64,000 bases of DNA from Streptacidiphilus sp. PB12-B1b (GTDB taxonomy: Bacteria; Actinomycetota; Actinomycetes; Streptomycetales; Streptomycetaceae). A model generated the notes under the pieces. The model was not told the origin of the DNA. It saw only the letters and a program-made list of their open reading frames with translations, and searched no databases. This document shows, piece by piece, positions 2,900 to 62,230 of this stretch. Position 1 is the stretch's first letter; each line of letters begins with the position of its first letter. A program made the position numbers and the translations under genes. Where the stretch lies: the NCBI RefSeq assembly GCF_014084125.1, contig NZ_CP048405.1, forward strand, positions 3,720,001 through 3,784,000. The letters run 5' to 3'.

Positions 2900-2934
2900 T
2901 CGACCCCCGGCCGCGTGCGCGGCCCGTATCCATC

Positions 2935-2957
2935 CGCCTGCCCCGGCGGGGCAGGCG
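2935..2957. terminator. Hairpin, 10-bp stem, after the PP2C gene
   Basis: Perfect inverted repeat CGCCTGCCCC / GGGGCAGGCG with a 3-nt loop, 36 bp after the stop of the phosphatase gene. A weaker GGCCGC / GCGGCC hairpin lies just before it. No T-tract follows, which is usual in this GC range. Confidence 0.5.
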
Positions 2958-3024
2958 CCCAGCGGGCGGTCCGGTGCGCCGGGCCGCCCGCCGTTCGACC
3001 CAGCCGCGACCAGGAGCACGCCGT

Positions 3025-43682: not shown

Positions 43683-43789
43683 GCTGTGTGCCTCCATAGA
43701 GGGGTGGACGTCTCCGCTCCGGTCTACCCAGCACGGCCGGACGCGCAGGGGAGGCGCGCCCGGCCGCCGACGATTGGCCCCTGGGCGGC

Positions 43790-46700
43790 TCAGTCCTGCG
43801 GCGGGGGCGGCTGCGGCTGCTGCTGCCCTGCGGGTGGCTGCTGCTGTGCGGGCTGCTGGCGCGGCGTCTGGTGCGGCAGGTCCACGTGCAGGACGGTCTG
43901 GTCGTGGTCGCCCGGCAGGTGCTCGGCGGGCAGCGGCAGCTGCGGCCGGCCCTGGCTGCCGCGCGGGAACACCGTCATCGGAATGGACTCGACCGCCACC
44001 TGCGGAGTGTCCGGGCCGTGCAGATCGGTCAACTGCTGCCCCAGCGCCTCACGGAACGCCTCGGCGACGGCCGCCCCGCGCAGCGCCGACAGCTGCAACG
44101 ACTGCCCGAAGTGCGCTCGGCCGCCGTGGGTCACGGTCGCGTGCGCCTCGACGGTGACCACCGGCGGCAGGCCGCCGCTCTGCGCCTGCACCAGGCTGCT
44201 GGTGGCGACATGCGAGGCCACCGACTCGATCGCGGTGCTCTGGCCCGCGCCCAGATCCGCCGAGGAGCCGTCGAAGCCGAGGGCCTGGCTGGCCACCCGC
44301 TCGACCGTCACCGGCTCGACCGTCACCGGCTCGACCGTCACCGGCGCGGCAGACGTCGAGGCTGGTGCCGTGCGCACCACCTCCGGTGCGGGCGGCGGGC
44401 CGGGCTGCTCCGGCGGCGCCGGGTGCGCGGGCTGGAACGGGACGTCGGCGAGGGTGGTGGAGCCGGGCGCGGCCGGGGGCGGTGCGGCGTCGTGGACGAC
44501 CGGGGGCGGCGCGGCGACGGTCTCGTCGCTCGGGGGCGAGACGACGATGCGCGGGACGGGCGGCGTGGCGGGCTGCACCACCGTGATCCGGTTGGGCGGA
44601 GCGGCGACGACGGTGTCGTGGGCCGTGACGGTGGCTGGTTGTCGGAGTGGGGCGGTGGGGGCCGGGACGGGAGTGGTGGGCAGCGGCACCGTGACCCGGT
44701 CGGGCGGGGCCGGGGCGACGGTGTCGTCCGCCGTGCGGCTCGGCAGCGGGTTGCCGGGCGCGGCGGGCTGGGTGGTGATCGGGCGGTTCGGCAGGGCCGG
44801 GGGGAGGGCGCCGTGCATCATCGGCGGCGGCGCCTGCCGGGTGGTGTCGGTGGCGAGCGGGGTGGCGGCCGGGGTCGAGACCGGGGTTGCAGTCGGGGTC
44901 GAGGCCGGGGCCGTGCGCGCGGGGGGCGGTGGGACCGCCTGCTGGCCGCCGTTGTTCGGCTGCGGGGGGTTGCGGACCATCGGCACCTGGTCGCCCTGCT
45001 GGTGTGCTCCGGAGAACACCAGGTAGGTGTCGCCGGGCCGGGTGCCGCCGGTGGTCTCGTGCTCGGGGATGTCGACGGTGACCGGGATGACGCCCTTCTC
45101 CTGGAGTTGGCGGCCTCCGTCGGAGAAGGTCAGCGTCACCTCGGCGTGGCCGGTGAACCGGGCCATCGGGGTGTTGAACTTGCCGCTGGCGATCACGCGT
45201 CCGCCCTGCTCCAGCAGGGGGCCGCCGCGGTTGCGGTGCTGCACACCGGCCGTCAGCAGCACCGTCGCCTCGGCGTGTCCGGCGTCCGCCTCGACCCCGA
45301 TCTGGCCCTGGCCGCCCCAGAGCGTCCAGTCCAGGTCGGTGTGCCGGGTCGTCGTGCCGACCTCGCTGGCGGGGCTCAGCTCCACCTTGTTGTCGCTGGC
45401 CTCGTACTCCAGGCTGAGCAGCTTCACCGACGCCTTGACCTGGGCCTGGTTCACGAACAGCCGGTGCCCGGCGCTGGGGGTGCTGAGGTCGTCGCCGCGC
45501 GTCGCCGGGTTGAAGCCGGACGACAGCTGGCTGTGCCCGATCGCCTGCCGGGCGACGTCGTTCATCCGGGCCCAGGTGCCCTTGCCGAAGAACTGCGGCC
45601 CGCGCGCCCGGATGATGTCGCCGATGCCGGAGGAGTCGCCGATCCACCGGGTCACGTCGACGTCCCGCAGACCCTCCGTCCACACGCGTGCGGGCGGCAC
45701 CCGCACGGGGGCGGGGCCAGGAGCGGGCGCGGGCGGCTGGGCTGCCCGGAACTGGGCGAGCTGCTGCTGCTCGGCCGGGTTCGGCCGGGCCACGAACACC
45801 GGCGGCTCCCCGGTCTCCAGGGGTCGGGTCTCGGACGCCTGGAGCGTCGCCTCGAAGCCCACCTCGGTCTGCGCGCTGCTCCGCTGCGGGGCCATCATCC
45901 GCCGGACCGAGCGGATCACCCGTACGTTGTCCCCGTGGACGATGCTGCGCACCCCGTGCACGAAGGAGGCGGGCATGTCGCCGATCATCCGGATCGCGGT
46001 GCGCGGCGGCGGCTCCGCACCGCCGTGGTAACTGGCGGCCCCGATCCGGGGCGGGGCGCCCGGTGGGGGCGGGTTCCGGAGCGCTTCCCGCTGCAGGTAG
46101 GCATTGCTGCGGTCGACGGCCTGCTGCCGGAACGCGCGGGACATGGGTTCCAGGACCACCCGCTCGCTGTTGTGCAGGCTCAGCAGCGGCCGCCGGGTCA
46201 TGGTGAAGACCAGCTGCGCGGTTCCGGCCGCGGTCACGCCCTCGCGCTTGCTCTTGGAGGTCATGCCGGTCGACGCCGACCCGGCCGTCACCCGGGCCTC
46301 GTCGTGGCCCCACGAGCGGGTGCCGCCCAGTCCGAACACCCCGGCGACGCCGTGCGGCAGGGGGTTGGTGGTGCCCTGGGCCGAGACGGAGACGGTGTGG
46401 TTGTTGCCCCGGTCCCTGCCGCCGTCGTCGTCGGCGAAGGCGAAGGAGCGCTGTGCGGCGGTGCCGGTGTTGAACTCGGTCACCGGGACCTCGCCGGTCT
46501 GCCGCAGCCTGCTGACGTACGAGCTGATCCGCACCTCGCTGCGGCCGTGCCGGATCACCATCTCCTCACCGGACATCATCGGCTTCAGCGCGGGGACGAG
46601 CGCGTCGTCCCCGATGGCCCGGATGATCTTCTCGCGCATGCCCGGCCAGTCGCCGCGCAGGGTGTTCCTGCCGGTGTTGCCGATCCGGTCCACGGTCCGT

Positions 46701-49700
46701 TCGACGACGGTGTGGCGGGGGCCGCCGCCGTGCAGCGGGAAGACGTCGGTGACCACGTCCGACGATCCCAGCCGCCAGCTGCTGCTGATCCGGTCGGGCA
46801 CCGCCATGGGCCGGGCCGGCTGCTGGAGCCCCTGGGGGGTGGGGGCGTCGCGCAGCGGCACGGCGACCACGGCGCCGTCCATGACGACGGTGGGGTGGTG
46901 CTCGAAGTGACTGAGGTTGTTGCGCAGGTCGTAGTCCACGCCGAAGTGGATCTGGCCGGTGAACAGCCCCGCCGGTTCGTTGTTCTTGCCCCGGCTCGCC
47001 GTGGAGCCCGCGGTGTCCGTCGTCATGCTGCGGGAGAAGTCGAAGGCGCGGGTGTAGGAGGCGTTGATGTTGACGTGCGGCACCTTGACCTTGATCGGGA
47101 GGCCCAGGATGTGCCGGGTCCGCTGGTCGCGGGAGATGCCGGTGGAGGCCCGGTACTGGTTGCCCAACTCGAACTCGAAGGGGTCCACGGTCTCGGTGTG
47201 TCGGAAGTTGGCCAGTCCGGCGCGGACCTTGATGGTGCCCTTCCAGCCGCCCGCGTCCACATGGACGGTGATCGAGCCCCCCCGGGAGATCCGGGACAGC
47301 TGCCCCTTGAGCGCGAACGGGTCCAGCTGCTGGCGCAGTTGCATCCGCAGCTGGTCCGGGACGGGTCGGCCGAAGCGGTTGGCCAGGGTGCGCTCCACCT
47401 GGTTGAGCAGCCGGGAGTCGTCCGGGCCCAGACTGTGCAGGACGTCGGACGCGCCCATGGCGCCGCGGTGCTGGATCCGGTCCGGGGCGCTGCGCAGGTC
47501 GGCCGGCGGGGTCCGGGCGACGAACGGCTGCCGCGGGGGAGGGGGCACCGGCGCCGGGTGCGTCGGCGCCGGTGCCGTGGCCGGGTGCGCCGGTGTCGGT
47601 GTTGGTGTCGGGTGCGTGCTCGGGGCGGGGACCGGCGCTGTTGCAGCGGGGCCGTGGGCCTGTGCGGCGGCCGGGTGGTCGAAGACGGCGGGGCCGTTCG
47701 CGGTCATGGTGTGGGCCATGGTGTCCCGCGCGTCCATGCTGAACTCCGCGTCCAGCGGCACGGTGGCGGTGTGGGTGGCGTCGCCCCGGGTGAAACGGAC
47801 GTCGATCGCCACCCGGGAGTCGAACAGCGCCTGCGGCTGCTTGTACTTGCCGTTGGCGTACGCCTTGCCCGCCGTGCCCGAACGCCAGCCGATGCGGTTG
47901 CGGTGCTGGAGGCTGTAGGAGCCCTCGATGTCCATGTCGTCGGTGGGGGCTTCCGGATGCGAGTCCCCGCTCCCGGCCGTGCCGCCCTCGGTGCCGGTGG
48001 TGTGCGCGGGGGCGTCACCCGAGGAGTGGGCGGCGCCCGTGGCGGAGCCTCCGGCGGAGTCCGTCGCCGGGTGGTTCAGTTTGGCCTCGTAGCCGCCCAG
48101 GATGTTGCCTGCGCGGGTGCGCTCGAAGACCGTGCGGTTGGAGCCCGAGACGCCGGTCTCGGAGACCGAGTTCAGCTCGGTCTTCTCCTCCATCCGCTTG
48201 AACTCCATCCGGGTGACCCGGGCGGTCGCTGACACCTTGATCCCGCGCCGCAGCAGGGCCGCCTTCAACTCCGGTGTCTCCAGCGAGAGTCCACGCGTCA
48301 TGGAGGTCAGGTGCCCGGCCACCATCGGGTGACTGTAGGTGTCCAGCACCTCCTCCCGGATGTCTTTCCAGACGTCCGGGAAGTGCGTCAGGCCGAGCTG
48401 GTCCAGCTGGTCGTGCAGCGGGCGCACATCGCCCAGGTCGCGCGTGGTGACGGTGTCGCGCAGACCGTGCGGGCCGGCCGGGGGCGGGGTGTTCGGGCCG
48501 GCCGCGCCCCACACCGAGCGCGGCGGCTCGGCGACGACCTGCCCGGTCTGCCACACCCGGTTGTTGCCCGCCGGGCCGGCCGGCGGGTTCGCCGCCTCGA
48601 AGCGGGTCGGATCCAACGGCCCGGCCTGGCCGGTGACATCACGCGCCTCGTGCTGCTCGATGATGCTGGTGAAGTCCACCTGCGACGTGGGCCGGGCCTC
48701 GCGGACGGTGTCGTTCCCGTTCATCAGCTTGAAGTGCAACTGCAGCGTGCTCTTGCCGTCGAAGACGGCGCCGCCGGTCTTCAACTTCGTGGTGACCGTG
48801 ACGTCCTGGGACGAACCGGAGATCGCCGTCCGGTCCCGTCCGCGCTGTTCCGAGCCGGAGCCGCCGAGCATCCCGGGCATCATCTTGGCGATGTTGCCCG
48901 GCACCGGCAGCTGCCCCAGATGGCTCCGGGTGCCGAGGTCGTACTGCGAACGGACCACGCCGGTACCGACGTTGAACTCGGTCGAATCGGTGTTGGCCAC
49001 ATGCCACATGGAGTGAACGGAGGCGCTGATCTCCACAACGCCCTTGCTGCTGCTGCCGAAACGCCCGGGAACCTCGACCCGCAGCGGCTGACCGGACATC
49101 ATGCCCTTGAGATCCTGGTGCAGTTGGCCCAGATCGACCTGCTCGGCCAGCTGTGTGCGGACCTTGGGCCACATGTCCCCGAAGACCCCCCGCCCGTCGG
49201 TGTCGGCGTCCACCAGCACCGACTCGATGCCCTTGGTGGTGACGGCGCCGTTGGCCAGCCGGGTCGCCGACACGTCCACCACGATGTCCGAGCCGCCGAT
49301 CCGGCGGGAGTTGACGATGCGCTGCGGGGGTGCGAACAGCGTCTTCGGACGAACCGGGCGGTCCCGCGCGTCCAGGGTGTCGCGCTTGGGCACCGCCACC
49401 GTGCCGCGGATGTCCATGGACGCGTGCTGACCGCCCAGAGGCAGTTCGTACCTCTTGCCGAACTTCTTGACGTCGGAGAAGTCCAGCGACAGCCGGAAGG
49501 AGGTGCCGAAGAGCGAGGCCGCCTCGGTGGTCTTGCCCCGAGCGATGGTCCGGGCCCCGTCGGTCCGGGTGGAACCGTCCAGACGCTCGTGCGTGTACGT
49601 CACCTGCGGAGTGATGTCGCCGTTGCCGGTCTTGAACTTGCTGGACAGGCCGCCCTGGTAGCGGGTGAGCCCGTCGCTGGTCCGGCCGAGGACGACCTGG

Positions 49701-52700
49701 TGCTCCGAACCGCCCTCGAACTCCAGCTTCGGCGCCTCGGACAGGTAGAGGTGGCTGTCGACGCTGACCCTCATGGTCACCGTGCCGGACCAGCCCTTGG
49801 CCTTGAACGGGGCCTCCCAGACATCGCCCCGGGACATGGCGGACAGCCGGGGCTTCACCGTCGAGCTGCCGAAGAAGCTGTGCGCGATGGTCTGCCCGGC
49901 CTCGTCGTCGCCGAGGGCCCTGCCGAAGAGCGCGGTGATCCGGCTGACCACCACGTTGTCGTCCTCGTGCAGGCTGACCAGCAGGTCGCCGCCGGAGAGC
50001 TGCTTGCCGGAGACGATCCGGGCGGGCGGCGTACGGACGTCCTCCGGCGCCACCGGATCACGGGGCGCGAACGCGGGGTCGTAGAGGTGATGGGTGGTCC
50101 AGGGCGGCGTCCCCGACGTCGTCGGGTGCGGGCGCGGCACCGGAGGCACGGGTCGCGTGGGTGCGGGCGGAGGGGTGTGGGTCGGCTGGGTTGCGGCGTC
50201 CCGGGTGGACCGCGAACTGCTGGCCACCGCGTTGACCTGCTTCCGGGCGACCGTACGCGGATTCGGCCGAGGCGCCGACCGAGTCGGATCCTGCGCCGGA
50301 AGGGCGTCGCGGGAGAGGTCGCGGGTCACCGGGGGCGGAGCGGGCGTCCGGGAGCTGGTCGGCGGCGTCGGCGCCTCGACGGGGGTGGGTCGCTGGGTGG
50401 CGGTGTCGTCGGTAGTTGCGTCCGTGGTGGGACGGGTGGCGGCGTCGCCGGTGGTGTCGTCGGCGATGGTGTCGTCGGCGGTGCGGGCCTTGGTGGCGGG
50501 AAGCGTGGACGCGTCGCGGACCACCAGGGGCTGCGCGGGGACGTGGGTGGCCACGGTCGGCGGCGTTGAACCCTCGACCGTGGTGGGACGGTCGCTGGTG
50601 ACGTCGCTGCTCGTGGCGGCGGGTTGCGTCAGCCGTACCGGCGCGGCCTCGGGCGGTTCGACGGTGCTGTGCACGGTCGGGTGCTCGATGGTGGGCACGG
50701 GCTGGCGGACGGTGTCCGCCAAGCCGTCGGCGGTGTGGGGTGCGGCCGGGACGGGTGGCGGTACCGACACGTCGTCGTCCAGCGGGCGGACGACGGTCGG
50801 CGGTGTGGTCTCGGGCGGGCTGACCGGCGTGTGCTGCTCCTGCACTTGCTGCGCCCGCGTCGGCAGCGGAGTCGCCGCTTCGCGGTTGGGGTCCGACACC
50901 GGGTCCACCCAGGTGTGCTGACGCGTCGTCATGGATGCCTGTTCGCGGGCATCCTGCCACTCCCGCGAGGTGCCGGGGGTGCTCTGCTCGGTGGGCCGCT
51001 CGACCGGGGACGGCGGGAGTGGGATGTCCTCGGCCGAGGCCGGGACCTCGCGCACGGTGGTCGGCTCTGCCGCATCGTGCGAGGAACCGGCGGCGGCCGG
51101 CTGTGGCGCCCTCGGGGCGGCCTCGGCCGCCGTGTCGGTGGGCACGGCGCGGTGGTCCGAACCGCCGCCGCTGGTCAGGGCACCGAGCAGGTGCAGATGG
51201 CGGCTGCGCAGGCCGCCCTGACCCAGGCCGTCCGGCGACGGCTCGCGGAAGTCGCCCAGCAGGGAGCCGGGGATGTGCGGGCGCTGCGGCCCGGAGCTGT
51301 CGCGGTACTCGTCACGCAACCCCAACTGGTGGGCGATCTCGTGGGCGTAGGCGGCCGGTTCGGCACCGACCGGCCAGCTGCGCTGGTCCATCGGCCCGTC
51401 CTGGCTGACCAGGTCGACGGTCAGGTGCGGGGCCTCGTCCACGCCGACGTGTTCGACCGTCACATGCAACTGGTCGCCGTTGGGCAGCCGGTGGGCCGGA
51501 TCGTTGAAGAACTGCTGCACGCCCCGCTGCACCCGGCTGCGGGTGTCCTCCGCGTCGGGGTTCCCCTCCCCGTTGCGGAACGCGACCTTGACCGTCAGGT
51601 CGGTGAACGGCTGACCCTTGACGCTGAACCGGCGCAGGTCGAAGCCGGAGCGGACGACGAAGCGCGGCGTCCGATCCAGCCGCGCGGGCGGCGGGACGAC
51701 GGGGTTGTCGGTCCGCACCGGACTTCCGACGTCGGCCCCGGCGGTGGGGGAGGCGTTGCGTACCGGCCCGCCGTTGCCCGGGCCGGGCGGAAGATCCCCG
51801 TGCCCGGCGGTGGCAGCGGCCCCGGTCGCAACGGCTCCGGCCACGGCGGTCGAGGGCGTATGCGCGCTCTCCCGCACCGGCTGCGGCGCTCCTGCGGCCT
51901 CGGTCGCCACCCTCGGGGCAGGGGTGTGCGCCCCGGCCCCCTCGGCGCTGGAGCCGTTGCCGGAGGCCGCCGAGGTCGAGCCCGTACGGGGGTCGGCGGA
52001 CGGCGCAGGGTCGGAGACCGTGCGGACCTGTCCGGCGGAAGTGCCGGGTGACGTGCCGACGGACGTGCTGGTGGATGTCGATCCGGTGGCGGGGCGGGCC
52101 GGGTCGTCAGCCGCTGTCGAGGTGGTGGTGACCGGTGAGGGGGTTTCGGTGTCGACGTCCTGCTCGGAAGCGCGGCCGACGGTCGTGACGGGCGGGTTCT
52201 GCGCGGTGGGGGAGTCCGTCCGTACCTGCGAGACGCCCGCCCCGCCGGTCTGGGCGGTTTGGCGGGTCTGGCCGGTCTCGCCCGTCTGCTCGTGCGGCAC
52301 GGACGGCGCGGCGGTGGCACCGCTGCCGCCCTCCGCGTGCCCGGTGGCCGTGCTGACCGTGGTGCGCACCTGGCCTGCGTCGTCGGTGTCGGAACCCGGA
52401 GCGGCGCCACGCTGGTTTCCGGCGGCTGCCGACTGCTGCTGGCCGGTCCGGGTGTCGGCCCGGCCGTCGGCGTGGCCCGCACCGGCCAGGCCGTTGCCGA
52501 CGGACGTGACCGGCGTGCCACCGCTCTCGGTGCTCACCACTGGAGCGGTACGGCCCTGCCCTGCGCCCGCTGTCTCCACCGCGTCGGACTCGCCGGTCTT
52601 CGCGTCGCCGAACTCGGAGGTGCCGGTGTGGGAGGCGGTGTCCGTGTCGCTGCCGAAGTCGTCCGTCAGTTTGACGTCGTCGTCGAGGCCGGGCAGGTGC

Positions 52701-53566
52701 AGGTCCAGGTCGGGCATGGTCGGGAGCTTCAGGTCGACGTCGATGTGCTCGGTGTCGTCGTCCCCGCCGAACCGGCGGCGCCCGCCGCCGCCACCGGCCA
52801 GTGCGCCGATGATGCTGGAGCTGAGCGTCGAACCGAAGTCGCCCTCGCCGCCGAAGATGCCGTCCATGGCGGCGGTGCTGACCACGCCGGTGATGCCGCC
52901 GATCGTGGCCTTGCCGATCAGCGATCCGGCGAACTTGGGCACGAACACCTCGCCCGCGCCGGAGAACAGGCCGCCGATCGCCCCGGAGATGGCGCCGCTC
53001 TCCACCGCCGAGAGGGTGTCCTGGGTGTCCCACTTGGTGCGGTCGCCCTTGAGGATCTGGATGGTCTGAATGGCGACGTCCATGCTGACCATGAAGCCGA
53101 CGCCGGTGGCGATCCCGGTGATCAGCCGGCGCAGGATCATCTGGATGACCAGCCGTGCCGAGGTGATCGCGGCCGGTGCCAACTCCGGCGCCCAGAAGGC
53201 CAGCTGTACCAACTCTGCGGCCAGCCAGACCAACTGGGCCAGGATCATGTACTTGGAGTATTCGATCTGCACCCCGGTGTTGCGTCCCAGCTCGCCCAAC
53301 TGGCCTGCGGCCTGCGACATGTCGGGCATGCTGGACTGCAACTGGGTGACGAAGGACTGAAACTGGTCCGCAACCGACCCGCCCAGGTTGGCCAGCACGC
53401 CGCTAGTGGCCGGGTCGATCGAGCTGCTGATGGTGACCAGTTGCTGGGCGGCCTGGTTCCAGGCGTCGCCGAGCTGCATCATTTTGTCCTCGTCGCCCTG
53501 GGGCCAGGACTGGCCGACGGCCAGCTTGGCGACCCAGGACAGCTCGGGGGGCAGGTTGATGCTCAT
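43790..53566 (-). CDS. Giant T7SS-associated protein: WXG100/CpnT-like N-terminus, metzincin-like motif, six-copy module, OmpA-like end
   Basis: A 3258-residue protein with no cysteine seen. Residues 1-110 are a helical WXG100/CpnT-like secretion domain (PELSWVAKLAVGQSWPQGDE), followed by hydrophobic helices (about 105-235) and a Gly-rich stretch. A Ser/Thr/Pro linker leads to a small domain (about 640-800) with HEIAHQLGLRDEY at 742-754, the H-E-x2-H-x2-G-x2-D pattern of metzincins. A second linker precedes six diverged copies of a beta-rich module (about 1180-2840), then a Pro-rich region and an OmpA-like domain (about 3090-3220) before a Pro/Gln tail. No C-terminal toxin domain was recognised. 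The ATG overlaps the stop of the 53563-53934 gene (ATGA). Likely a secreted T7SS effector or surface protein; function unknown. Confidence 0.8.
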   Translation of the reverse strand: MSINLPPELSWVAKLAVGQSWPQGDEDKMMQLGDAWNQAAQQLVTISSSIDPATSGVLANLGGSVADQFQSFVTQLQSSMPDMSQAAGQLGELGRNTGVQIEYSKYMILAQLVWLAAELVQLAFWAPELAPAAITSARLVIQMILRRLITGIATGVGFMVSMDVAIQTIQILKGDRTKWDTQDTLSAVESGAISGAIGGLFSGAGEVFVPKFAGSLIGKATIGGITGVVSTAAMDGIFGGEGDFGSTLSSSIIGALAGGGGGRRRFGGDDDTEHIDVDLKLPTMPDLDLHLPGLDDDVKLTDDFGSDTDTASHTGTSEFGDAKTGESDAVETAGAGQGRTAPVVSTESGGTPVTSVGNGLAGAGHADGRADTRTGQQQSAAAGNQRGAAPGSDTDDAGQVRTTVSTATGHAEGGSGATAAPSVPHEQTGETGQTRQTAQTGGAGVSQVRTDSPTAQNPPVTTVGRASEQDVDTETPSPVTTTSTAADDPARPATGSTSTSTSVGTSPGTSAGQVRTVSDPAPSADPRTGSTSAASGNGSSAEGAGAHTPAPRVATEAAGAPQPVRESAHTPSTAVAGAVATGAAATAGHGDLPPGPGNGGPVRNASPTAGADVGSPVRTDNPVVPPPARLDRTPRFVVRSGFDLRRFSVKGQPFTDLTVKVAFRNGEGNPDAEDTRSRVQRGVQQFFNDPAHRLPNGDQLHVTVEHVGVDEAPHLTVDLVSQDGPMDQRSWPVGAEPAAYAHEIAHQLGLRDEYRDSSGPQRPHIPGSLLGDFREPSPDGLGQGGLRSRHLHLLGALTSGGGSDHRAVPTDTAAEAAPRAPQPAAAGSSHDAAEPTTVREVPASAEDIPLPPSPVERPTEQSTPGTSREWQDAREQASMTTRQHTWVDPVSDPNREAATPLPTRAQQVQEQHTPVSPPETTPPTVVRPLDDDVSVPPPVPAAPHTADGLADTVRQPVPTIEHPTVHSTVEPPEAAPVRLTQPAATSSDVTSDRPTTVEGSTPPTVATHVPAQPLVVRDASTLPATKARTADDTIADDTTGDAATRPTTDATTDDTATQRPTPVEAPTPPTSSRTPAPPPVTRDLSRDALPAQDPTRSAPRPNPRTVARKQVNAVASSSRSTRDAATQPTHTPPPAPTRPVPPVPRPHPTTSGTPPWTTHHLYDPAFAPRDPVAPEDVRTPPARIVSGKQLSGGDLLVSLHEDDNVVVSRITALFGRALGDDEAGQTIAHSFFGSSTVKPRLSAMSRGDVWEAPFKAKGWSGTVTMRVSVDSHLYLSEAPKLEFEGGSEHQVVLGRTSDGLTRYQGGLSSKFKTGNGDITPQVTYTHERLDGSTRTDGARTIARGKTTEAASLFGTSFRLSLDFSDVKKFGKRYELPLGGQHASMDIRGTVAVPKRDTLDARDRPVRPKTLFAPPQRIVNSRRIGGSDIVVDVSATRLANGAVTTKGIESVLVDADTDGRGVFGDMWPKVRTQLAEQVDLGQLHQDLKGMMSGQPLRVEVPGRFGSSSKGVVEISASVHSMWHVANTDSTEFNVGTGVVRSQYDLGTRSHLGQLPVPGNIAKMMPGMLGGSGSEQRGRDRTAISGSSQDVTVTTKLKTGGAVFDGKSTLQLHFKLMNGNDTVREARPTSQVDFTSIIEQHEARDVTGQAGPLDPTRFEAANPPAGPAGNNRVWQTGQVVAEPPRSVWGAAGPNTPPPAGPHGLRDTVTTRDLGDVRPLHDQLDQLGLTHFPDVWKDIREEVLDTYSHPMVAGHLTSMTRGLSLETPELKAALLRRGIKVSATARVTRMEFKRMEEKTELNSVSETGVSGSNRTVFERTRAGNILGGYEAKLNHPATDSAGGSATGAAHSSGDAPAHTTGTEGGTAGSGDSHPEAPTDDMDIEGSYSLQHRNRIGWRSGTAGKAYANGKYKQPQALFDSRVAIDVRFTRGDATHTATVPLDAEFSMDARDTMAHTMTANGPAVFDHPAAAQAHGPAATAPVPAPSTHPTPTPTPAHPATAPAPTHPAPVPPPPRQPFVARTPPADLRSAPDRIQHRGAMGASDVLHSLGPDDSRLLNQVERTLANRFGRPVPDQLRMQLRQQLDPFALKGQLSRISRGGSITVHVDAGGWKGTIKVRAGLANFRHTETVDPFEFELGNQYRASTGISRDQRTRHILGLPIKVKVPHVNINASYTRAFDFSRSMTTDTAGSTASRGKNNEPAGLFTGQIHFGVDYDLRNNLSHFEHHPTVVMDGAVVAVPLRDAPTPQGLQQPARPMAVPDRISSSWRLGSSDVVTDVFPLHGGGPRHTVVERTVDRIGNTGRNTLRGDWPGMREKIIRAIGDDALVPALKPMMSGEEMVIRHGRSEVRISSYVSRLRQTGEVPVTEFNTGTAAQRSFAFADDDGGRDRGNNHTVSVSAQGTTNPLPHGVAGVFGLGGTRSWGHDEARVTAGSASTGMTSKSKREGVTAAGTAQLVFTMTRRPLLSLHNSERVVLEPMSRAFRQQAVDRSNAYLQREALRNPPPPGAPPRIGAASYHGGAEPPPRTAIRMIGDMPASFVHGVRSIVHGDNVRVIRSVRRMMAPQRSSAQTEVGFEATLQASETRPLETGEPPVFVARPNPAEQQQLAQFRAAQPPAPAPGPAPVRVPPARVWTEGLRDVDVTRWIGDSSGIGDIIRARGPQFFGKGTWARMNDVARQAIGHSQLSSGFNPATRGDDLSTPSAGHRLFVNQAQVKASVKLLSLEYEASDNKVELSPASEVGTTTRHTDLDWTLWGGQGQIGVEADAGHAEATVLLTAGVQHRNRGGPLLEQGGRVIASGKFNTPMARFTGHAEVTLTFSDGGRQLQEKGVIPVTVDIPEHETTGGTRPGDTYLVFSGAHQQGDQVPMVRNPPQPNNGGQQAVPPPPARTAPASTPTATPVSTPAATPLATDTTRQAPPPMMHGALPPALPNRPITTQPAAPGNPLPSRTADDTVAPAPPDRVTVPLPTTPVPAPTAPLRQPATVTAHDTVVAAPPNRITVVQPATPPVPRIVVSPPSDETVAAPPPVVHDAAPPPAAPGSTTLADVPFQPAHPAPPEQPGPPPAPEVVRTAPASTSAAPVTVEPVTVEPVTVERVASQALGFDGSSADLGAGQSTAIESVASHVATSSLVQAQSGGLPPVVTVEAHATVTHGGRAHFGQSLQLSALRGAAVAEAFREALGQQLTDLHGPDTPQVAVESIPMTVFPRGSQGRPQLPLPAEHLPGDHDQTVLHVDLPHQTPRQQPAQQQPPAGQQQPQPPPPQD
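44300..44344 (-). repeat. Three perfect 15-bp units in the giant gene (VTVEP x3)
   Basis: CTCGACCGTCACCGG repeated three times without mismatch in the Pro-rich region before the OmpA-like domain; encodes V-T-V-E-P units. Perfect identity indicates recent slippage. Confidence 0.85.
45040..50025 (-). repeat. Six-copy beta-rich protein module within the giant gene
   Basis: Copies begin near residues 1180, 1385, 1690, 2025, 2250 and 2580. Five start with R-I or L-R-D then G-x-S-D or G-D; each has a short L-x-x-M-x-x-G block (LSAMSRG, LKGMMSG, LTSMTRG, LSRISRG, LKPMMSG; the sixth is degenerate) and ends in a strand such as LHFKL or VTLTF. The set looks like a duplicated block of three. Confidence 0.6.
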
Positions 53567-53934
53567 TCCTTGCCGGGCCTCGAATCGTAGTCGTCGGTGC
53601 TGCTCGAACCGCCGTCAGCAGGCTGCAACTGCCTTACGGCGGCGACATTCTGGTCCTCCAGCCGGTCGAACTGGACGGCCATGGTCCTGACCCCCTGAGC
53701 CGTGCTGTCGACCACGTCCCCGGCGCCGCCGACGCCCTGCACCCACTCCTGGTGCGGGTTGTCGTACTGCCCGAAGAACTGCTGTCCGGCGGCGTCCTTG
53801 CCCCAGCACTCGCCCAGCGCGTCCAGCGTGGACTCCAGGGTGGTCCCGACCGAACGCAACTGTTCGGCCAGCTCCTGCATGTAGGGGATCTGGTTGTTCA
53901 GACCTTCGGTGTCGACCGAGAACGCGTCGGGCAC
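53563..53934 (-). CDS. WXG100-like small T7SS protein (123 aa)
   Basis: Two predicted helices flank a W-G turn: ELAEQLRSVGTTLESTLDAL, then ECWGKDAAGQQFFGQYDNPH, then a second helix DVVDSTAQGVRTMAVQFDRL. This is the Esx fold with C-W-G-K-D replacing W-x-G and a disordered acidic tail. AGGAGG lies 6 bases before the GTG start. Its TGA overlaps the ATG of the giant gene, so it is probably the chaperone-like secretion partner of that protein. Confidence 0.8.
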   Translation of the reverse strand: MPDAFSVDTEGLNNQIPYMQELAEQLRSVGTTLESTLDALGECWGKDAAGQQFFGQYDNPHQEWVQGVGGAGDVVDSTAQGVRTMAVQFDRLEDQNVAAVRQLQPADGGSSSTDDYDSRPGKE

Positions 53935-53977: not shown

Positions 53978-54415
53978 TCAGCGCGGGCCGCGCGGACCGT
54001 CCGGGCGTCCGTTGTCGATGTAGTCGCGGACCGCGTCGGGCATGCCCGGGTCGTCCGGCAGCAGCGCGGTGGGATCGGCCCGGCCCTGGAGCAGATCGCC
54101 CGCGCCCACGCCGGGCGGCAGCCCCAGCGACGTCAGCTCGGCCACCTGCTCCAGCGCCTTCTCGCGGGCCTGCGCCAGCGCCGCCATCATCGCCTCGGAC
54201 AATTCCTTGGGGGCCATCCGGCGGTAGGCCCCGGTCGGGAACTCGACGGCGGTGACCTCGCCGTTGGCGCTCACGGTGACCTTGACGCTCTGCCGGGGCG
54301 CGGTGCCGACGCCGCTGACCTCGTTGATCCGGCGGCGGGTCTCGGCCGCCTCCTCGCGCTGCCTGCGGTACAGCGCGAGGAGGTCCTCGATGCCCTGGTC
54401 GTACGGTGTGCTCAT
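53978..54415 (-). CDS. YbaB/EbfC-family protein (EspL-like)
   Basis: A 145-residue protein with the YbaB fold: helix IEDLLALYRRQREEAAETRR, strands SVKVTVSANGEVTAVEFP, and helix ELSEAMMAALAQAREKALEQ, plus a Pro/Gly/Asp tail. YbaB-like proteins within T7SS operons (EspL in mycobacteria) bind DNA or stabilise secretion substrates. GGAGGG is 4 bases from the ATG. Positioned between the PPE-like gene and the giant-protein pair, all on one strand. Confidence 0.85.
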   Translation of the reverse strand: MSTPYDQGIEDLLALYRRQREEAAETRRRINEVSGVGTAPRQSVKVTVSANGEVTAVEFPTGAYRRMAPKELSEAMMAALAQAREKALEQVAELTSLGLPPGVGAGDLLQGRADPTALLPDDPGMPDAVRDYIDNGRPDGPRGPR

Positions 54416-54469: not shown

Positions 54470-57382
54470 TCAGAGGAACGCATCGGCATCCTCCGCCGCC
54501 CCTCCGCCGCCCCAGGTGTCGCCGTCCTGGACCAGCAGATCGGCGATGCTGCGGACCGGCGCGGGCTCCTCGGGCTCGTCCGGTTCCTGCAACTCCGGCT
54601 CCTCCGCGACGGCTTCGGCGGAGCAGGACGCGGACAGCGCCGAGGTGGCCGCCAGGGCGCGCTCGGTCAGGCCGCCGGGGGCGGGGGCGCGGTTGGGCTG
54701 CCAGGTCGCCCAGCCCGGGCCGTCCGGCTCACCCTCGGCGATCGGCGCCTCGGCCCCGGCCGGCTGCCCGGTCCAGGTACCGTCCTCGGCGCCGGAGTAG
54801 CCGGAGGAGAGCACATCGCGCTCCTCCTCGCCGCCGACCAGCCCCCACAGCAGCGGCACCAGCGCCTCCCCGGCCGTGTCCCAGGCGGCGCTCTCCTCGG
54901 CGCCCTCGCCCTCCGCCTGGCCCGCCAGCGCCCCCTGCTCGTCGGCGAGCGGCTCCCCCTCCTCCTCCAGCAGCGCGCTGCTCCCCGCGTTGGGGGCGGA
55001 CGACGGCACCGCCTCGGCCGTGGCCTCGACCCCCTCGGGGAGATCGGTCCAGGCGGCGGCCTCCGCCCGGGCCAGGGCGGGCGGCTCCTCGTGCTGCGCG
55101 GCGGTCGCGGCTGCGGCCACGGCCCCGGCCGCCAGCAGGCCGAGCGAGGCAGCCCCGGCGACCGCACCGAGGGCCGAACCGACCTCGTCGGCGGTGCCCG
55201 GCTCCCCCTGCCAGGGATCGGTCTCGCCCTCCAGCAGGCCGGAGGCGTCACTGCGCTCGCCGTCGGAGCCGCCCTGGCCCGGTGCGCCGCCCGCGCCCGG
55301 CAGGTACGGCATGCCGTCACCGGCGGACGACCCACCCGACTCCGCGGCCGGGACGTCCGAGCCCGGGCCGTCGGCGTCCGCACCACCGGCGCCGAGGCCG
55401 TCCGCGCCCAGTCCGTCCGCGCCCGGGCTGCCTGCGCCCAGGTCGCCGAGGCCGCCCAGTCCGTCCAGGCCGCTGCCACCGGCGGTGGTGCCCAGCGGCG
55501 AACCCACCTCCTCGTCGAGGTCCGGCTCGCCCTCCCAGGGGGCGATGTCGCCGTCCAGCAGGCCGGAGGCGTCGCTGCGCTCGCCGCTCGGGTCGCCGCT
55601 CTGCCCCGGCGCGCCGCCCGCGCCGGGCATGTAGGGCATGCCGTCGCCCGCCGCGTCCGCGCCGGTGTCGCCCGCGCCCACCCCGCCGAGCGCGCCCAGG
55701 CCGTCCGCGCCCGGCAGCCCGGTGCCGAGCCCGTCCGCGCCCTGGCCGTCCTTGCCCAGTCCGTCCGCGCCCAGGTCGCCGAGGCCGTCCAGGCCGCTGC
55801 CGCCGGCGGCGGTGCCCAGCGGAGAGCCGATGTCGCCGTCACCGACGTCCGTGGACCCCTCCCAGGGCGCGACATCGCCGTCGAGCAGGCCGGAGGCGTC
55901 GCTGCGCTCGTCGCCGGCGCCCGGCTGACCGGCCGCGCCGCCCGCGCCGGGCATGTACGGCATGCCGTCACTGGCCGCGTCGCTGCTGGTGTCGCCGACG
56001 CCGGTGCCGCTCAGCGACCCGAGGCCGTCCGCGCCGGGCACGCCCGTGTCCAGCGGCACGCCGGTGCCCAGGCCGTCGGGCACGCCCGACTCGGTGGACA
56101 GGCCGCCCGGGAAGGCCGCAGGACTGCCCGCGCCGTCGGTGGACAGGTCGTCCGCCGTGCCCGGCAGGCCGCCCACGCCGCCGGTGCCGAGGCCGCCCGG
56201 AAAGGACTCCCCGGTGTCGTCGGCGAGCGGGTCGGTGACGTCGTCCTCGGTGCCCAGGGGCAGCGCGCCGACGCCGGTACCGACACCGGTCCCGCCGGGA
56301 AAGGAGGAGGGGCTGAGCGCGCCGAGCGGGTCGGTCGAGCCCAGCGGATCGGGATCGGCTCCCCCGACGCCGGTGCCGTCGGGGAAGGCGGACGGGTCGC
56401 CGACCCCGGTGCCGTCGCCGGGCAGCGCGGCCAGATCGCTGACGCCGGTGCCACCGGGGAAGGGGGACGGGTCGGCCGAGCCACCGGGGTTGAGCGCGGC
56501 GTCCAGCGAGGCCGGGTCCAGACCGCTGTCGGGCAGCCCGGCCGCGTCCGAGGTGGACAGGTCGCCCGGGAAGGGCGACGGATCGGCCTCGGCATCCCTC
56601 GGAAGGTCCGACGTCACCGGGCTCAACGGCATGTCGTCCGTCGGCCCCGTGCCCGTGTCGGGATCGTTGAGGCCCGGATCGTTGGGGTCGTTGGGGCTGT
56701 TGTCACCGGGAGAGTTGATCGGCTGGGGCGAGCGGACCGTGTCGATGGTGACCTGGTACTCGCCGGCCAGGCTCTTGAGCACGGCCCGCATGTCGCTGGT
56801 CATCATCTCGACCAGCTGCGGCTTCTGGCTGATCGGGATCAGCCCGTTGCTCATCGGCTGGACGCCCATCTCGATCGCCTGGTTGGCATACCAGTTGTCG
56901 ATCTCCACGAGCTTGTTCTGGGCGGTCCGCAGGTTGACCGAGTTGTCGGCGAGCTGCTGCGGGACCGAGTCGGTGCCGGTGGCCCCGCCCGACAGCACGT
57001 TGGCGGTCGCGCTCACCTGCTTGGAGAACGTGGTCATCATGTCGATGAAGGAGTCCGCTGCGTCACCCGTCCACGGGCCGTGCGGACCGGCCAGCGCGTT
57101 GGCCTGGTCCTGAAGGCTCTGGGCGATCTGCGACAGGGTCAACTGCACGGTGTAGAAGGCGTCCGCGGCCGTCTGCAGCGTGCTCGGATCGGACACGGAC
57201 AGCGCATGGGTGTCGTTGTCGGAGTTGTCCACCCCGGCGGACATGCCGTTGATGGCGGCCATGATCTGCTTCCAGTCCCAGGTGTTGTAGTCCGACACCG
57301 AGCCCGGATCGGACCCCGGGTCGCCGAAGACCGCGCCGTCGTCGCCCTGGTTGAAGCCGTTGTTGTTGTAGTCCGTACTCAT
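54470..57382 (-). CDS. PPE/WXG100-like protein with long Gly/Asp/Pro repeat region (970 aa)
   Basis: Residues about 30-245 are helical with the W-T-G turn at 104-106 (GPWTGDAADSF), the hairpin of WXG100/PPE proteins. Residues about 250-700 are low-complexity Gly/Asp/Pro/Leu (units like GADGLG and FPGGTGVG). Within this region three copies of a unit with GMPYMPGAGG, R-S-D-A-S-G-L-L and P-W-x-G are found, a signature seen in other Streptomyces Esx-linked proteins. The last 230 residues are acidic Ala/Glu-rich. No cysteine in the helical domain. Probably a T7SS substrate or structural surface protein. Its ribosome binding site is moderate (GGCGGG). Confidence 0.75.
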   Translation of the reverse strand: MSTDYNNNGFNQGDDGAVFGDPGSDPGSVSDYNTWDWKQIMAAINGMSAGVDNSDNDTHALSVSDPSTLQTAADAFYTVQLTLSQIAQSLQDQANALAGPHGPWTGDAADSFIDMMTTFSKQVSATANVLSGGATGTDSVPQQLADNSVNLRTAQNKLVEIDNWYANQAIEMGVQPMSNGLIPISQKPQLVEMMTSDMRAVLKSLAGEYQVTIDTVRSPQPINSPGDNSPNDPNDPGLNDPDTGTGPTDDMPLSPVTSDLPRDAEADPSPFPGDLSTSDAAGLPDSGLDPASLDAALNPGGSADPSPFPGGTGVSDLAALPGDGTGVGDPSAFPDGTGVGGADPDPLGSTDPLGALSPSSFPGGTGVGTGVGALPLGTEDDVTDPLADDTGESFPGGLGTGGVGGLPGTADDLSTDGAGSPAAFPGGLSTESGVPDGLGTGVPLDTGVPGADGLGSLSGTGVGDTSSDAASDGMPYMPGAGGAAGQPGAGDERSDASGLLDGDVAPWEGSTDVGDGDIGSPLGTAAGGSGLDGLGDLGADGLGKDGQGADGLGTGLPGADGLGALGGVGAGDTGADAAGDGMPYMPGAGGAPGQSGDPSGERSDASGLLDGDIAPWEGEPDLDEEVGSPLGTTAGGSGLDGLGGLGDLGAGSPGADGLGADGLGAGGADADGPGSDVPAAESGGSSAGDGMPYLPGAGGAPGQGGSDGERSDASGLLEGETDPWQGEPGTADEVGSALGAVAGAASLGLLAAGAVAAAATAAQHEEPPALARAEAAAWTDLPEGVEATAEAVPSSAPNAGSSALLEEEGEPLADEQGALAGQAEGEGAEESAAWDTAGEALVPLLWGLVGGEEERDVLSSGYSGAEDGTWTGQPAGAEAPIAEGEPDGPGWATWQPNRAPAPGGLTERALAATSALSASCSAEAVAEEPELQEPDEPEEPAPVRSIADLLVQDGDTWGGGGAAEDADAFL
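55190..55990 (-). repeat. Three copies of the GMPYMPGAGG / RSDASGLL / PW unit
   Basis: Within the 970-residue protein the unit recurs near 55.93, 55.60 and 55.28 kb, each about 320 bp apart, with variable Gly/Asp-rich spacers. Confidence 0.7.
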
Positions 57383-58864: not shown

Positions 58865-61800
58865 TCACGACGGCACCAGCGGGGCCGTCTGCGCGCTGCG
58901 CGCGTGGTCCGGGGCCTGCTCCGCAGGCATCTCCCGGAGGGCGGGCGCCTCGGGCGGGCCCGGCAGGTCGTCGAGGGTGATGGTGCGCGAACGCGCTGAC
59001 GCGGCCAGCTGCTCGGCCCACCGGTGCAGGTCGTACACGCCCCCGGGAGACGCGAGCTGGATGTGCCCGCCGACCAGTGCGCGCGCCGCCTCGTCCCCCA
59101 ACCGGAAGCCGAGGGAGCGCAATTGACGGTCAATCAACTGAACCGCTTGGACTGCGGTGTAGGGAGCCAGCTCGGCGTACTCGGCGAACACCGCTGCCAG
59201 GTCGGTCCGTTCACGCATCAGGTCCATCAGCCGCGGGCCGCTGCCGGAGAGGACCAGGACCGCGCCGTGGGGGCGTCCGGCGAGCTTCACCAGGGCGTCC
59301 AGGACGGCGGTGCGCTGCGCGGGCCGACGCTGCTCGAAGGCGGCGTCCGACTCCAGCAGCAGGAGGCCGCCTTCGGCTTCGGTGAGGGCGGCGGCGAGGC
59401 GGAACAGGGGCTGCTCGGCCCAGCGGACCGGCACCGCGGACAGCGGCAGGTGGTGGACGGTCCCGGTGGCCAGCAGCCCCGACTCGGCCAGGCAGCGGCC
59501 GTAGGCCCGCGCCAGGGCTCGTCGACCACTGCCCCGCGGACCTTCCAGCACGACGTGGGCCAGCCCCTCGGTGGGCTGACCCGCCTCACGCAGCTTGGCC
59601 AGCGCCTCCAACCGCGCGCGCAGCGTCTCCCGGGCGGAGTCCAGCCCGGTCAGCGCGGCCAGCGCGCGCACCGGCGACGACGGCTTGGCCTGCTCGGGCG
59701 CGGGCGGGGCGGCGGACTCGGCAGGCGGCGTCGGCACGGGGGCCCCGGGGGCCGCAGTGGGCGTGGCGGCCACGGGCGCGGATGGCGTCCTGGCCGGTGG
59801 CGTGGCCGCAACCGCAGGTGCGGCGGCGGGCACGGGTGCGGTGATGACGTCGTCGCCGGTGAGGGTGCTGAGGTCGTTGTCGTGCTGGGGCGGGTGGGCG
59901 GCCAGGCGGGAAGCCTGACGGCTGATCATTTCCTCGAAGACCTGGCGCGCGACGCGGCCGTTGCCGAAGGTGGCGCCCTTGGGGACGTCGACGAAATAGC
60001 GGTTCAGCGCGTCCAGCGCGGAATCGGTGAGGTGGTAGTAGTGCTTGGCGCACAGGCCGCGGACGATGGTGACCAGTTCGTCGGGGCTGTAGTTGGGGAA
60101 CGCGATGGTGCGGGCGAAGCGGGAGGCCATGCCGGGGTTGGAGGCGAGGAACTGGTCCATCTGGGCGGAGTAGCCCGCGACGATGACGACGATCTCGTCG
60201 CGGTGGTCCTCCATGAGTTTCATGAGGGATTCGACGGCTTCCTGACCGAAGTCGGGGCCGCTGCCCCGGGACTGGTTGGTCAGGGTGTACGCCTCGTCGA
60301 TGAACAGGACGCCGCCGAGGGCCTTGTTGAAGACCTCGGTGGTCTTGATGGCGGTGCCGCCGATGATCTGGGCGACCAGATCGGCGCGGGCGACCTCGAC
60401 GATGTGGCCCTTGCTGAGGATGCCGAGTTCCGCCAGGACGGCGCCGTAGAGGCGGGCGACGGTGGTCTTGCCGGTGCCGGGCGGCCCGGCGAAGACCAGG
60501 TGGCGGCTCATGGGGGGCATGGGCAGGCCCATCTCCTGCCGCCGCTGGGTGATCTTGTTGAGGTTGATCAGGCCGGTGACCTCGCGTTTGACGCTGTCCA
60601 GGCCCACCAGGGCGTCCAGATCGGCCAGCGGCCCGGTCCCGGGGTGCTGGGCGCCGTCGGCGAATCCGCCCTCCGACGCGTCCGGGGTGGGACGCACGGC
60701 GCTGGTGTCGCCGGCGTCGTCCGGGTCCTCGCTGGTGGCGCTGTCGCCGGTGTCGAGGCGGTGGAGGGTGAACGGGGTGCTGGGCCGCAGCCGGTTGAGC
60801 GGGACGCCGCCGTTGTGGTGGATCCGGCAGTCGGTGAGCGTGACCGGCTCGTCGGTGTTGCAGCGGATGCCGTCGCCGGTGTTGTCCTGGAGGGTGGTGG
60901 CGGTCAACTCCAGGCGGGTGGTGGGGTGCAGGTTGATGCCGTGGCGGTGGGCGGTGGTGATCCGGCAGCCGGTGGCGGTCAGCGCGGCACCGGTGGTCAG
61001 GTGCAGGGCATCGGCGTCGGAGCCGGTGAATTCGCTGTCGTGGGCGGTGAGTTGGCTGTCGGCAGTGAGGTGCGTGGCGCTGCCGTGGACGGTACTGGTG
61101 GTGAGCTGGGCCCGGGCGCTGTCGGTCAGGTTCAGCGCGGTGCCGCCGGTGGTGTTCAGGCGGGTGTCGGTGAGCTGGGCGGTGGCCTGGTCGAGCTGGA
61201 TGCCGGTGGAGCCGGGCTGGGGCGTGAGTTCGGCGCGGGTCAGCGTGAGCCGGGCGGTGCCGGTGGCGTGGGCGCCGGTGGTGGAGGTGTGGTGGACGGT
61301 CAGGTCGTGGCAGTCGGCGTGGGTGTCGGCTTCGAGGTGCAGGCCGACCGGGGTGTCGTGGATGCGGCAGTTCTGCAGGCGGGCGCGGGCACCGGGCGCG
61401 AGGTGGACGCCGGTGGCGGCGGCCGTGATGGTGCAGGTGTCCAGGACGGGCGTGGCGCCGGAGCCGACGTGGACCGAGGTGGCGGCGGACCCGGACAGGG
61501 TGCAGTGGGCCAGCGTGGTGCTGCCGGTGCTGGTGAGGTAGGCGTCCAGGGTGGTGCTGTCGGTGATGGTGGTGTGGTGGAGTTCGGCCTGGGCGTGCTG
61601 TTCGACCGCGAGGGCCGGTTTGCCGCTGCCGGTGATGCGGGTGGTGTGGATCTCGGCGCGGGCGTTGCCGTTGACGCAGATGCCGTTGCCGCGCGGCTGG
61701 TGCAGCTGGCTGTCGCGGACGGTGAGGTGTCCGTGTTCGGCGACGACCAGGGCGGAGGAGCCGGCGTCGTGGATGCGGGTGTGTTCGATGGTGTTGGGGC

Positions 61801-62230
61801 CGGGGGAGGTGACCACGATGCCCGCGCCCTGGGTGTTGGTGACCTGGCAGTCGCGCAGCGCCAGGACGCCGCTGTGCCAGGACAGGACGGCGGCCCATGC
61901 CTGGCCGGTGATCTGGCAGCCGTCCAGGGCGGCCTGTCCACGGCGCACGTCCAGGACCGGGGCCTGCGGGTCGGCGCCGGACAGGTGCAGGTGGGAGAGC
62001 TGCACGGCTTCGGCGTCCAGGACCAGGGCGCTGCCGGTGGCGGCGTGGATGTGCACGGGGCCGGTGTCCTCGGCGGCCAGGGTGAGCGGACGGGTGATCA
62101 CCAGGCTCTCCTGGTAGCGGCCGGGCGCCACGGTGATCAGGGAGCCTTCCTCGGCGTCGGCCAGGGCGGCCCCGATGGTGCGGTAGGCACCCGCACGGTC
62201 GGCTGCGACGGACAGCACACGACGACTCAC
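58865..62230 (-). CDS. Right-handed beta-helix + AAA+ ATPase (EccA/CbxX-like)
   Basis: A 1121-residue protein. Residues about 1-500 are a right-handed parallel beta-helix with many copies of short T/H-rich rungs (TLAHCTLSGS, LTDTRLNTTGG). Residues about 550-830 are a CbxX/CfxQ AAA+ domain: Walker A GPPGTGKTT (K588), Walker B GGVLFIDEAYTL, sensor region ASRFARTIAFPNYSPDEL, as in EccA of T7SS. A Pro/Ala linker leads to a second AAA-like domain (about 895-1090) whose Walker A is GPRGSGRRA and whose Walker B reads LLLLESDAAF, so it has lost catalytic residues. GTG overlaps the stop of the upstream gene (GTGA). Confidence 0.85.
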   Translation of the reverse strand: MSRRVLSVAADRAGAYRTIGAALADAEEGSLITVAPGRYQESLVITRPLTLAAEDTGPVHIHAATGSALVLDAEAVQLSHLHLSGADPQAPVLDVRRGQAALDGCQITGQAWAAVLSWHSGVLALRDCQVTNTQGAGIVVTSPGPNTIEHTRIHDAGSSALVVAEHGHLTVRDSQLHQPRGNGICVNGNARAEIHTTRITGSGKPALAVEQHAQAELHHTTITDSTTLDAYLTSTGSTTLAHCTLSGSAATSVHVGSGATPVLDTCTITAAATGVHLAPGARARLQNCRIHDTPVGLHLEADTHADCHDLTVHHTSTTGAHATGTARLTLTRAELTPQPGSTGIQLDQATAQLTDTRLNTTGGTALNLTDSARAQLTTSTVHGSATHLTADSQLTAHDSEFTGSDADALHLTTGAALTATGCRITTAHRHGINLHPTTRLELTATTLQDNTGDGIRCNTDEPVTLTDCRIHHNGGVPLNRLRPSTPFTLHRLDTGDSATSEDPDDAGDTSAVRPTPDASEGGFADGAQHPGTGPLADLDALVGLDSVKREVTGLINLNKITQRRQEMGLPMPPMSRHLVFAGPPGTGKTTVARLYGAVLAELGILSKGHIVEVARADLVAQIIGGTAIKTTEVFNKALGGVLFIDEAYTLTNQSRGSGPDFGQEAVESLMKLMEDHRDEIVVIVAGYSAQMDQFLASNPGMASRFARTIAFPNYSPDELVTIVRGLCAKHYYHLTDSALDALNRYFVDVPKGATFGNGRVARQVFEEMISRQASRLAAHPPQHDNDLSTLTGDDVITAPVPAAAPAVAATPPARTPSAPVAATPTAAPGAPVPTPPAESAAPPAPEQAKPSSPVRALAALTGLDSARETLRARLEALAKLREAGQPTEGLAHVVLEGPRGSGRRALARAYGRCLAESGLLATGTVHHLPLSAVPVRWAEQPLFRLAAALTEAEGGLLLLESDAAFEQRRPAQRTAVLDALVKLAGRPHGAVLVLSGSGPRLMDLMRERTDLAAVFAEYAELAPYTAVQAVQLIDRQLRSLGFRLGDEAARALVGGHIQLASPGGVYDLHRWAEQLAASARSRTITLDDLPGPPEAPALREMPAEQAPDHARSAQTAPLVPS

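Follow-up and report, generated by a model that had tools for sequence, protein, structure and literature searches.

Rings of beta-pore-forming toxins and MACPF proteins are built from separate chains, and the passage of Gram-positive type VII secretion system (T7SS) toxin enzymes across a target membrane is, to our knowledge, largely unexplained. Zhang et al. (2012; PMC3482391) described giant proteins of actinobacteria in which several toxin domains are combined (ALF-like metallopeptidase, caspase, ADP-ribosyltransferase, MCF1-SHE), as well as OTU domains in WXG-headed T7SS toxins; the relevant passages do not mention a six-module hairpin barrel. For CpnT of Mycobacterium tuberculosis, a channel part, EsxE-EsxF and TNT have been described (PMC7810871).

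The giant protein analyzed here is encoded in a 64,000-nucleotide stretch (hereafter, the window; Table 1) of the genome of Streptacidiphilus sp. PB12-B1b, a soil-dwelling relative of Streptomyces. It resembles CpnT in its WXG100-like head, its small WXG100 partners and the idea of a channel combined with an enzyme, but CpnT ends in the TNT toxin and the giant protein does not; it also differs from the multi-toxin giants of Zhang et al. (2012) in having a zinc domain and no recognised terminal toxin. In our main reading, to which we assign a probability of roughly 58%, it is a polymorphic multi-domain type VII secretion effector carrying its own membrane passage, the candidate for which is a central hexad of related modules. 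A literature search over titles and abstract openings (preprints excluded, few subscription papers) returned no description of such a hexad. The barrel element could not be matched to any described family, giant multi-toxin proteins themselves having been known since 2012.

The giant gene and its type VII secretion locus

The open reading frame singled out by the initial annotation is a real minus-strand gene, with an ATG start, 3258 aa and coding-like codon-position G+C (0.70/0.56/0.93). Its translation contains no cysteine, as that annotation had claimed, whereas the other window ORF calls of at least 150 aa (crude calls, some perhaps spurious) contain 139 cysteines in 12,822 aa, from which about 35 would be expected in the giant protein. 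This absence is not a matter of chance, and it fits the earlier suggestion of a life outside the cell. Cysteine is also scarce in the hexads (13 in 88,958 aa over 57 hexads), and both this scarcity and the long linkers fit an extracellular role of the chain, which may also be threaded. The long Pro/Thr linkers noted before were recovered as three stretches with 49–59% P/T/S/A, the first of them (residues 270–625) being poorly conserved over most of its length relative to the same-genus orthologue; the hydrophobic Gly-rich stretch in front of it (31% ILVFMWY and 23% G over residues 150–270) has blocks 62–82% identical in that orthologue.

The head matches PF25547 at residues 10–147 with an E value of 4e-21 (76 bits against a cut-off of 27), and residues 1–250 share 68–82% identity per 50-residue block with the same-genus orthologue. 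This head, of whose family the CpnT head is presumably also a member, is the sole match of a Pfam scan of the giant protein, in which no C-terminal toxin tip was detected (the tail is OmpA-like and Pro-rich); NCBIfam gave no family for the protein, and comparison of the whole chain with PDB sequences gave nothing useful. CpnT is not known to contain a hexad. Of the proposed ATGA coupling to a small WXG100-like protein, the overlap itself is confirmed and recurs as an identical 4-base overlap in the G001 locus of a same-genus genome; the match of the partner to WXG100 lies just under the Pfam cut-off (26 bits vs. 27.3).

Going upstream on the minus strand, the gene order is giant, WXG100-like, YbaB-like, 970-aa, small genes, EccA-like and EccB/EccC, where EccB (PF05108) and EccC (PF01580, three stretches) lie beyond the window (L012). 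A matching gene set in similar order, as judged by first residues and lengths, is present in G001, where the gene at the position of the GH3-domain gene starts differently and no GH3 counterpart is apparent. The GH3-domain gene, which has a Tat-like start, occupies the downstream position next to the giant gene at which an immunity gene might be sought. The PF25547 match and the EccA-like, EccB and EccC genes agree with the earlier identification of a T7SS substrate with a CpnT-like head, and judging from these sequence features the giant protein is probably exported by the type VII secretion system.

The 970-aa WXG100-headed gene carries a tandem repeat of about 324 bp (2.7 copies) and several shorter repeats. 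A second T7SS-like locus of the same genome (G000:C1:4959589-4970409, L055/L056) encodes another WXG100_2-headed giant of 3606 aa with 2 Cys, which may have a different central part, since the hexad module profiles found nothing in it (best E 0.18).

Table 1. Features of the giant protein and neighbouring genes (window positions)
Feature	Residues	Position	Strand	Basis
Giant protein gene		43790..53566	minus	ATG start, 3258 aa, one terminal stop, no cysteine
WXG100_2 (CpnT-like) secretion head	1-150	53117..53566	minus	PF25547 at 10-147
Hydrophobic Gly-rich (Gly-zipper-like) stretch	150-265	52772..53119	minus	composition and conservation
Ser/Thr/Pro/Ala/Gly linker	270-625	51692..52759	minus	49% P/T/S/A
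Zinc-peptidase-like domain	626-810	51137..51691	minus	motif and alignment with 6 relatives
Zinc motif HEIAHQLGLRD	742-752	51311-51343	minus	HExxHxxGxxD pattern
Pro/Thr linker	811-1162	50081..51136	minus	56% P/T/S/A over 801-1160
Hexad of six hairpin modules A-B-C-A-B-C	1163-2852	45011..50080	minus	self-comparison, profiles, models
Module A1	1166-1400	49367..50071	minus	profile; hairpin in model
Module B1	1404-1642	48641..49357	minus	profile; hairpin in model
Module C1	1698-1952	47711..48475	minus	profile; hairpin in model
Module A2	2015-2244	46835..47524	minus	profile
Module B2	2249-2581	45824..46822	minus	profile
Module C2	2620-2852	45011..45709	minus	profile (match 2631-2840)
Pro/Ala/Thr linker	2853-3084	44315..45010	minus	59% P/T/S/A
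Divergent OmpA-like tail domain	3085-3212	43931..44314	minus	homologous tails touch PF00691
WXG100-like partner gene		53563..53934	minus	ATGA overlap with giant gene
YbaB/EbfC-like gene of T7SS locus		53978..54415	minus	PF02575, E 1.3e-11; counterpart in G001
970-aa protein, WXG100-like start, low-complexity repeats		54470..57382	minus	counterpart in G001
EccA-like AAA ATPase, right-handed beta-helix front		58865..62002	minus	PF13229, PF00004, PF17866; upstream coordinate is the edge of the scanned stretch, no start codon
GH3-domain gene		42540-43697		downstream neighbour, 92 bases from giant gene

Six modules and a predicted single-chain barrel

Self-comparison of the giant protein pairs residues 1166–1396 with 2015–2240, 1403–1614 with 2249–2456 and 1701–1807 with 2632–2739, and the A, B and C profiles (built from the giant protein and its same-genus orthologue) place A-B-C-A-B-C on the chain, so that the six module copies seen before are now resolved as a triplet occurring twice. 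The three types are mutually related, with profile-profile probabilities of 99.1–99.6% as compared to at most 0.2% for three controls. All 57 loci that were fetched for their two A-B matches read ABCABC once split hits of one letter had been joined, and because these had been so chosen, a further 13 loci, most of them of irregular appearance, were fetched. The intact ones among them have ABCABC either once or twice. Five were not intact, being cut by contig ends (L229, L230) or having broken ORFs (L232, L233, L234), and L227, L231, L235 and L236 contain hexads counted before. Counted once each, the intact arrays number 70 (57, plus 9 of a first set of 12 that are absent from those 57, plus the new L224, L225, L226 and L228), and another module number or order occurs in none; additional modules always form a whole second hexad (G001g, L224, L226), and a C module split by an insertion, printed CC, is found in two chains (the giant protein and one L226 hexad). 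The number of adhesin repeats is commonly variable, and an open-ended adhesin repeat array was rejected given the count fixed at six.

The hexad matched no Pfam family at E values up to 1 and has no NCBIfam family, and the triad profile matched no PDB sequence at the same threshold. What was earlier described as an unrecognised beta-rich module is now predicted to be the hairpin donor of a barrel. AlphaFold2 models computed without templates for the first triad of the giant protein and for a relative (alignments of 49 and 63 rows) reached pTM 0.83 and 0.87, which speaks for a folded rather than disordered module region. In the triad model each module (A1, B1, C1) comprises about 240 residues with a helical head and puts out one hairpin; that of C1 has a Gly/Ser/Thr insertion at its tip, and pLDDT is below 50 at model residues 672–714. 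With three modules predicted at good confidence here and five in the relative, the six hairpins together are predicted to form a single hollow 12-stranded barrel, the closure by the sixth being extrapolated. That the barrel is instead an artefact, with independent beta domains whose similar hairpins were aligned by AlphaFold2, we regard as extremely unlikely: barrels are part of the training of this program, the alignments are of just 49 and 63 rows and Foldseek TM-scores are low, but the pTM values were obtained without templates, Glu and Lys residues near the hairpins of several modules are invariant (63 rows), and the six-module count is strict.

In a fold comparison, autotransporter translocators outscored CymA (15.8), OmpG (13.2), FadL (12.3) and TonB receptors (10.3–11.5) among the matches listed, and porin or TonB receptor homology was set aside given these lower scores and the lack of a sequence relation. 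The autotransporters themselves (EspP, AIDA-I, BrkA, Hbp, NalP, EstA) differ from the hexad, where each hairpin comes from its own module of about 240 residues with a helical head, the host is monoderm, export is presumably by T7SS, and Pfam and PDB sequence searches (E up to 1) found no relation to known autotransporter translocators. An autotransporter-like geometry would accord with a barrel acting in the producer's own envelope, e.g., serving the wall of hyphae or spores as a conduit or lipid-carrying channel; this we consider very unlikely, as Streptomycetaceae lack an outer membrane and a patchy presence (53/394 family genomes) is unlike that of a housekeeping envelope part. The term channel applied to the N-terminal part of CpnT (PMC7810871) is a point in favor of this reading.

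The hexad is also comparable to beta-pore-forming toxins and MACPF proteins (perforin, MAC, pleurotolysin) in combining a core domain with a long hairpin that is predicted to have a polar stem and an amphipathic tip, and it differs from them in its six covalently joined modules; MACPF homology is not claimed, as the pore-form chains among the weak, low-scoring Foldseek matches of the models reach TM-scores of 0.11 at most. In family-averaged hydropathy, both faces are polar at mid-stem, and near the B and C tips a polar face is paired with a hydrophobic one (+1.4 to +1.8). The windows scanned for A, which ended before the outermost tip columns, reach at most 0.03 near the tip and show no such face. 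Scored sequence by sequence, the single face of highest hydrophobicity falls in the central 40% for 45/49 A, 45/49 B and 46/49 C hairpins, vs. 45%, 46% and 42%, respectively, for shuffles of the same hairpins; the rows share kinship and are not independent trials. Since stems are hydrophilic and tips tend to be amphipathic, the tip end is the one expected to enter a target membrane, and by analogy with beta-pore-forming toxins we infer that it would insert there.

These properties bear on the initial annotation's reading of the protein as a surface or contact-dependent structure. An exported chain could stay on the wall of the producer and grip it by the OmpA-like end, the barrel being a stiff, soluble stalk or the head of an adhesin, and the polar stems, long Pro/Thr linkers, OmpA-like tail and lack of a recognised terminal toxin would all suit such a role. 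We consider it unlikely, given that in A, B and C alike the face of highest hydrophobicity is at the hairpin tips when scored per sequence, that several hexad proteins have toxin-family enzyme domains, and that the modules always number six while adhesin repeats usually vary. Modules predicted to donate barrel hairpins speak more for a pore or conduit than for a structure that only sits at the surface.

Exchangeable enzyme domains and the OmpA-like tail

Relatives of the zinc domain were picked by the HExxHxxG pattern, and seven of the eight copies were aligned (one spanned two loci); the H, E, H, G and D of the motif are common to 7/7 rows, of which only the Asp counts as independent because the rows were selected by HExxHxxG. 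The metzincin-like zinc motif proposed earlier is present as HExxHxxGxxD at residues 742–752; at the presumed Met-turn, the giant protein has Leu and the other six rows Met. The zinc-domain profile matched several zinc-peptidase families in Pfam, all weakly (best M6, E 0.0034), and in the PDB the Streptomyces small neutral protease (snapalysin), again weakly (E 0.16). It has matches in 75/249 genomes of the family, and none in the same-genus orthologue. That orthologue has, between hexad and tail, an OTU-like domain (GDGxC...HYD), assigned by its motifs and by the invariance of Cys, His and Asp in 6/6 rows; its Cys is the sole cysteine of the protein, and the domain has no supporting Pfam or PDB match.

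Two other hexad proteins end in an ADP-ribosyltransferase, namely a 13,650-residue ORF of G001 (PF03496) and a Scabin-like case in G213 (PF22596), and these are the two of ten scanned relative pieces in which a toxin family was found. A Gln_amidase domain lies N-terminal of the hexad in 3/4 Kitasatospora pieces, and PF25547 was found in 2/4 head pieces of relatives. Enzymes thus occur on either side of the hexad, OTU-like and ADP-ribosyltransferase domains C-terminally and Gln_amidase N-terminally, and domain comparison shows that the delivery part is conserved while the enzyme domains are exchanged, as in polymorphic toxins. The earlier statement that no toxin domain is visible is not supported in this form, in that the zinc domain belongs to the same exchangeable enzyme-like set as the OTU-like domain of the orthologue and the two ADP-ribosyltransferases.

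The barrel may alternatively be a stand-alone pore that kills target cells or makes them leak, the enzyme domain serving only to process the chain (autoproteolysis) and nothing being translocated. Both the barrel prediction and the tip hydrophobicity would fit this; the ADP-ribosyltransferase and glutamine-deamidase domains of other hexad proteins, whose usual activities need substrates inside the target cell, make it distinctly unlikely. Zhang et al. (2012; PMC3482391) state that OTU peptidases of such proteins may act in processing or as toxins, which is compatible with it.

The tail is about 42% identical to that of the same-genus orthologue, and its profile has matches in 30/249 genomes. 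An OmpA-like end, as initially annotated, finds weak support: 7/18 homologous tails touch PF00691 at E values up to 1 (best 3.7e-4); the giant protein's own tail, one of the 18, matches nothing in Pfam, PF00691 included, and nothing useful among PDB sequences. With profile matches this weak, the idea of the OmpA end as a proven wall anchor was set aside. The tails have in common a near-invariant G-x-x-H-F-G motif, which is not known as part of the usual OmpA signature.

Proposed mode of action and distribution

Under the main reading, which suggests an injection-type toxin with a pore of its own beside an enzyme domain, the WXG100_2 head and the coupled WXG100-like partner would target the chain to the neighbouring T7SS, as family membership suggests, and the modules A-B-C-A-B-C, with one long beta-hairpin each, would close into one single-chain 12-stranded barrel, given the extrapolated sixth hairpin. 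The tip end of this barrel would enter the target membrane in the manner of beta-pore-forming toxins, and Pro/Thr-rich, cysteine-free linkers might allow the enzyme domain (zinc-peptidase-like with HExxHxxGxxD here, an OTU-like cysteine-protease domain in the orthologue) to reach the target cell through the barrel by being threaded or presented, which is the least certain step. The more specific proposal that monoderm actinobacteria use a covalent pseudo-hexameric 12-stranded barrel pore as the translocation channel built into giant effectors, which T7SS exports and whose enzymes are exchangeable, is tentative, and we place it somewhat short of even odds. A fixed six-module barrel beside exchangeable enzymes would explain the membrane passage directly and testably for a number of giant proteins of actinobacteria; if true, it would do with one chain what beta-pore-forming toxins achieve with several, and would illustrate barrel evolution by module duplication.

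With an A1-B1 query, relatives were found in 2/14 genomes of the genus and 8/293 of the order (own genome included in both), and with the A-B profile in 53/394 genomes of the family (four candidates scored per genome) and 9/394 of the class, the other eight of the latter in one further family; the single giant protein as a query against genome contigs and viral contigs returned no relatives. Named relatives comprise nine Kitasatospora loci and three Streptomyces plasmids, in the records of which the giant genes are annotated as hypothetical. On one plasmid (L003, Streptomyces sp. NBC_01455), an IS1634 element lies between the giant hypothetical gene and the hexad-bearing gene, amid several transposase genes, and the two genes were treated as separate and not joined. 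On the two others (L004, L005), a right-handed beta-helix gene that overlaps the giant gene and a RICIN-domain gene lie downstream of it, and both may encode partner proteins.

Besides its two hexads and the ADP-ribosyltransferase end, the 13,650-residue ORF of G001 (G001:C1, L015-L017) has zinc and OTU-like domains, four of each. ORFs of 19,630, 16,221 and 15,840 residues (G029:C17, G324:C5 and G077:C2), unusually large for bacteria, contain zinc-like or OmpA-like domains of this set.
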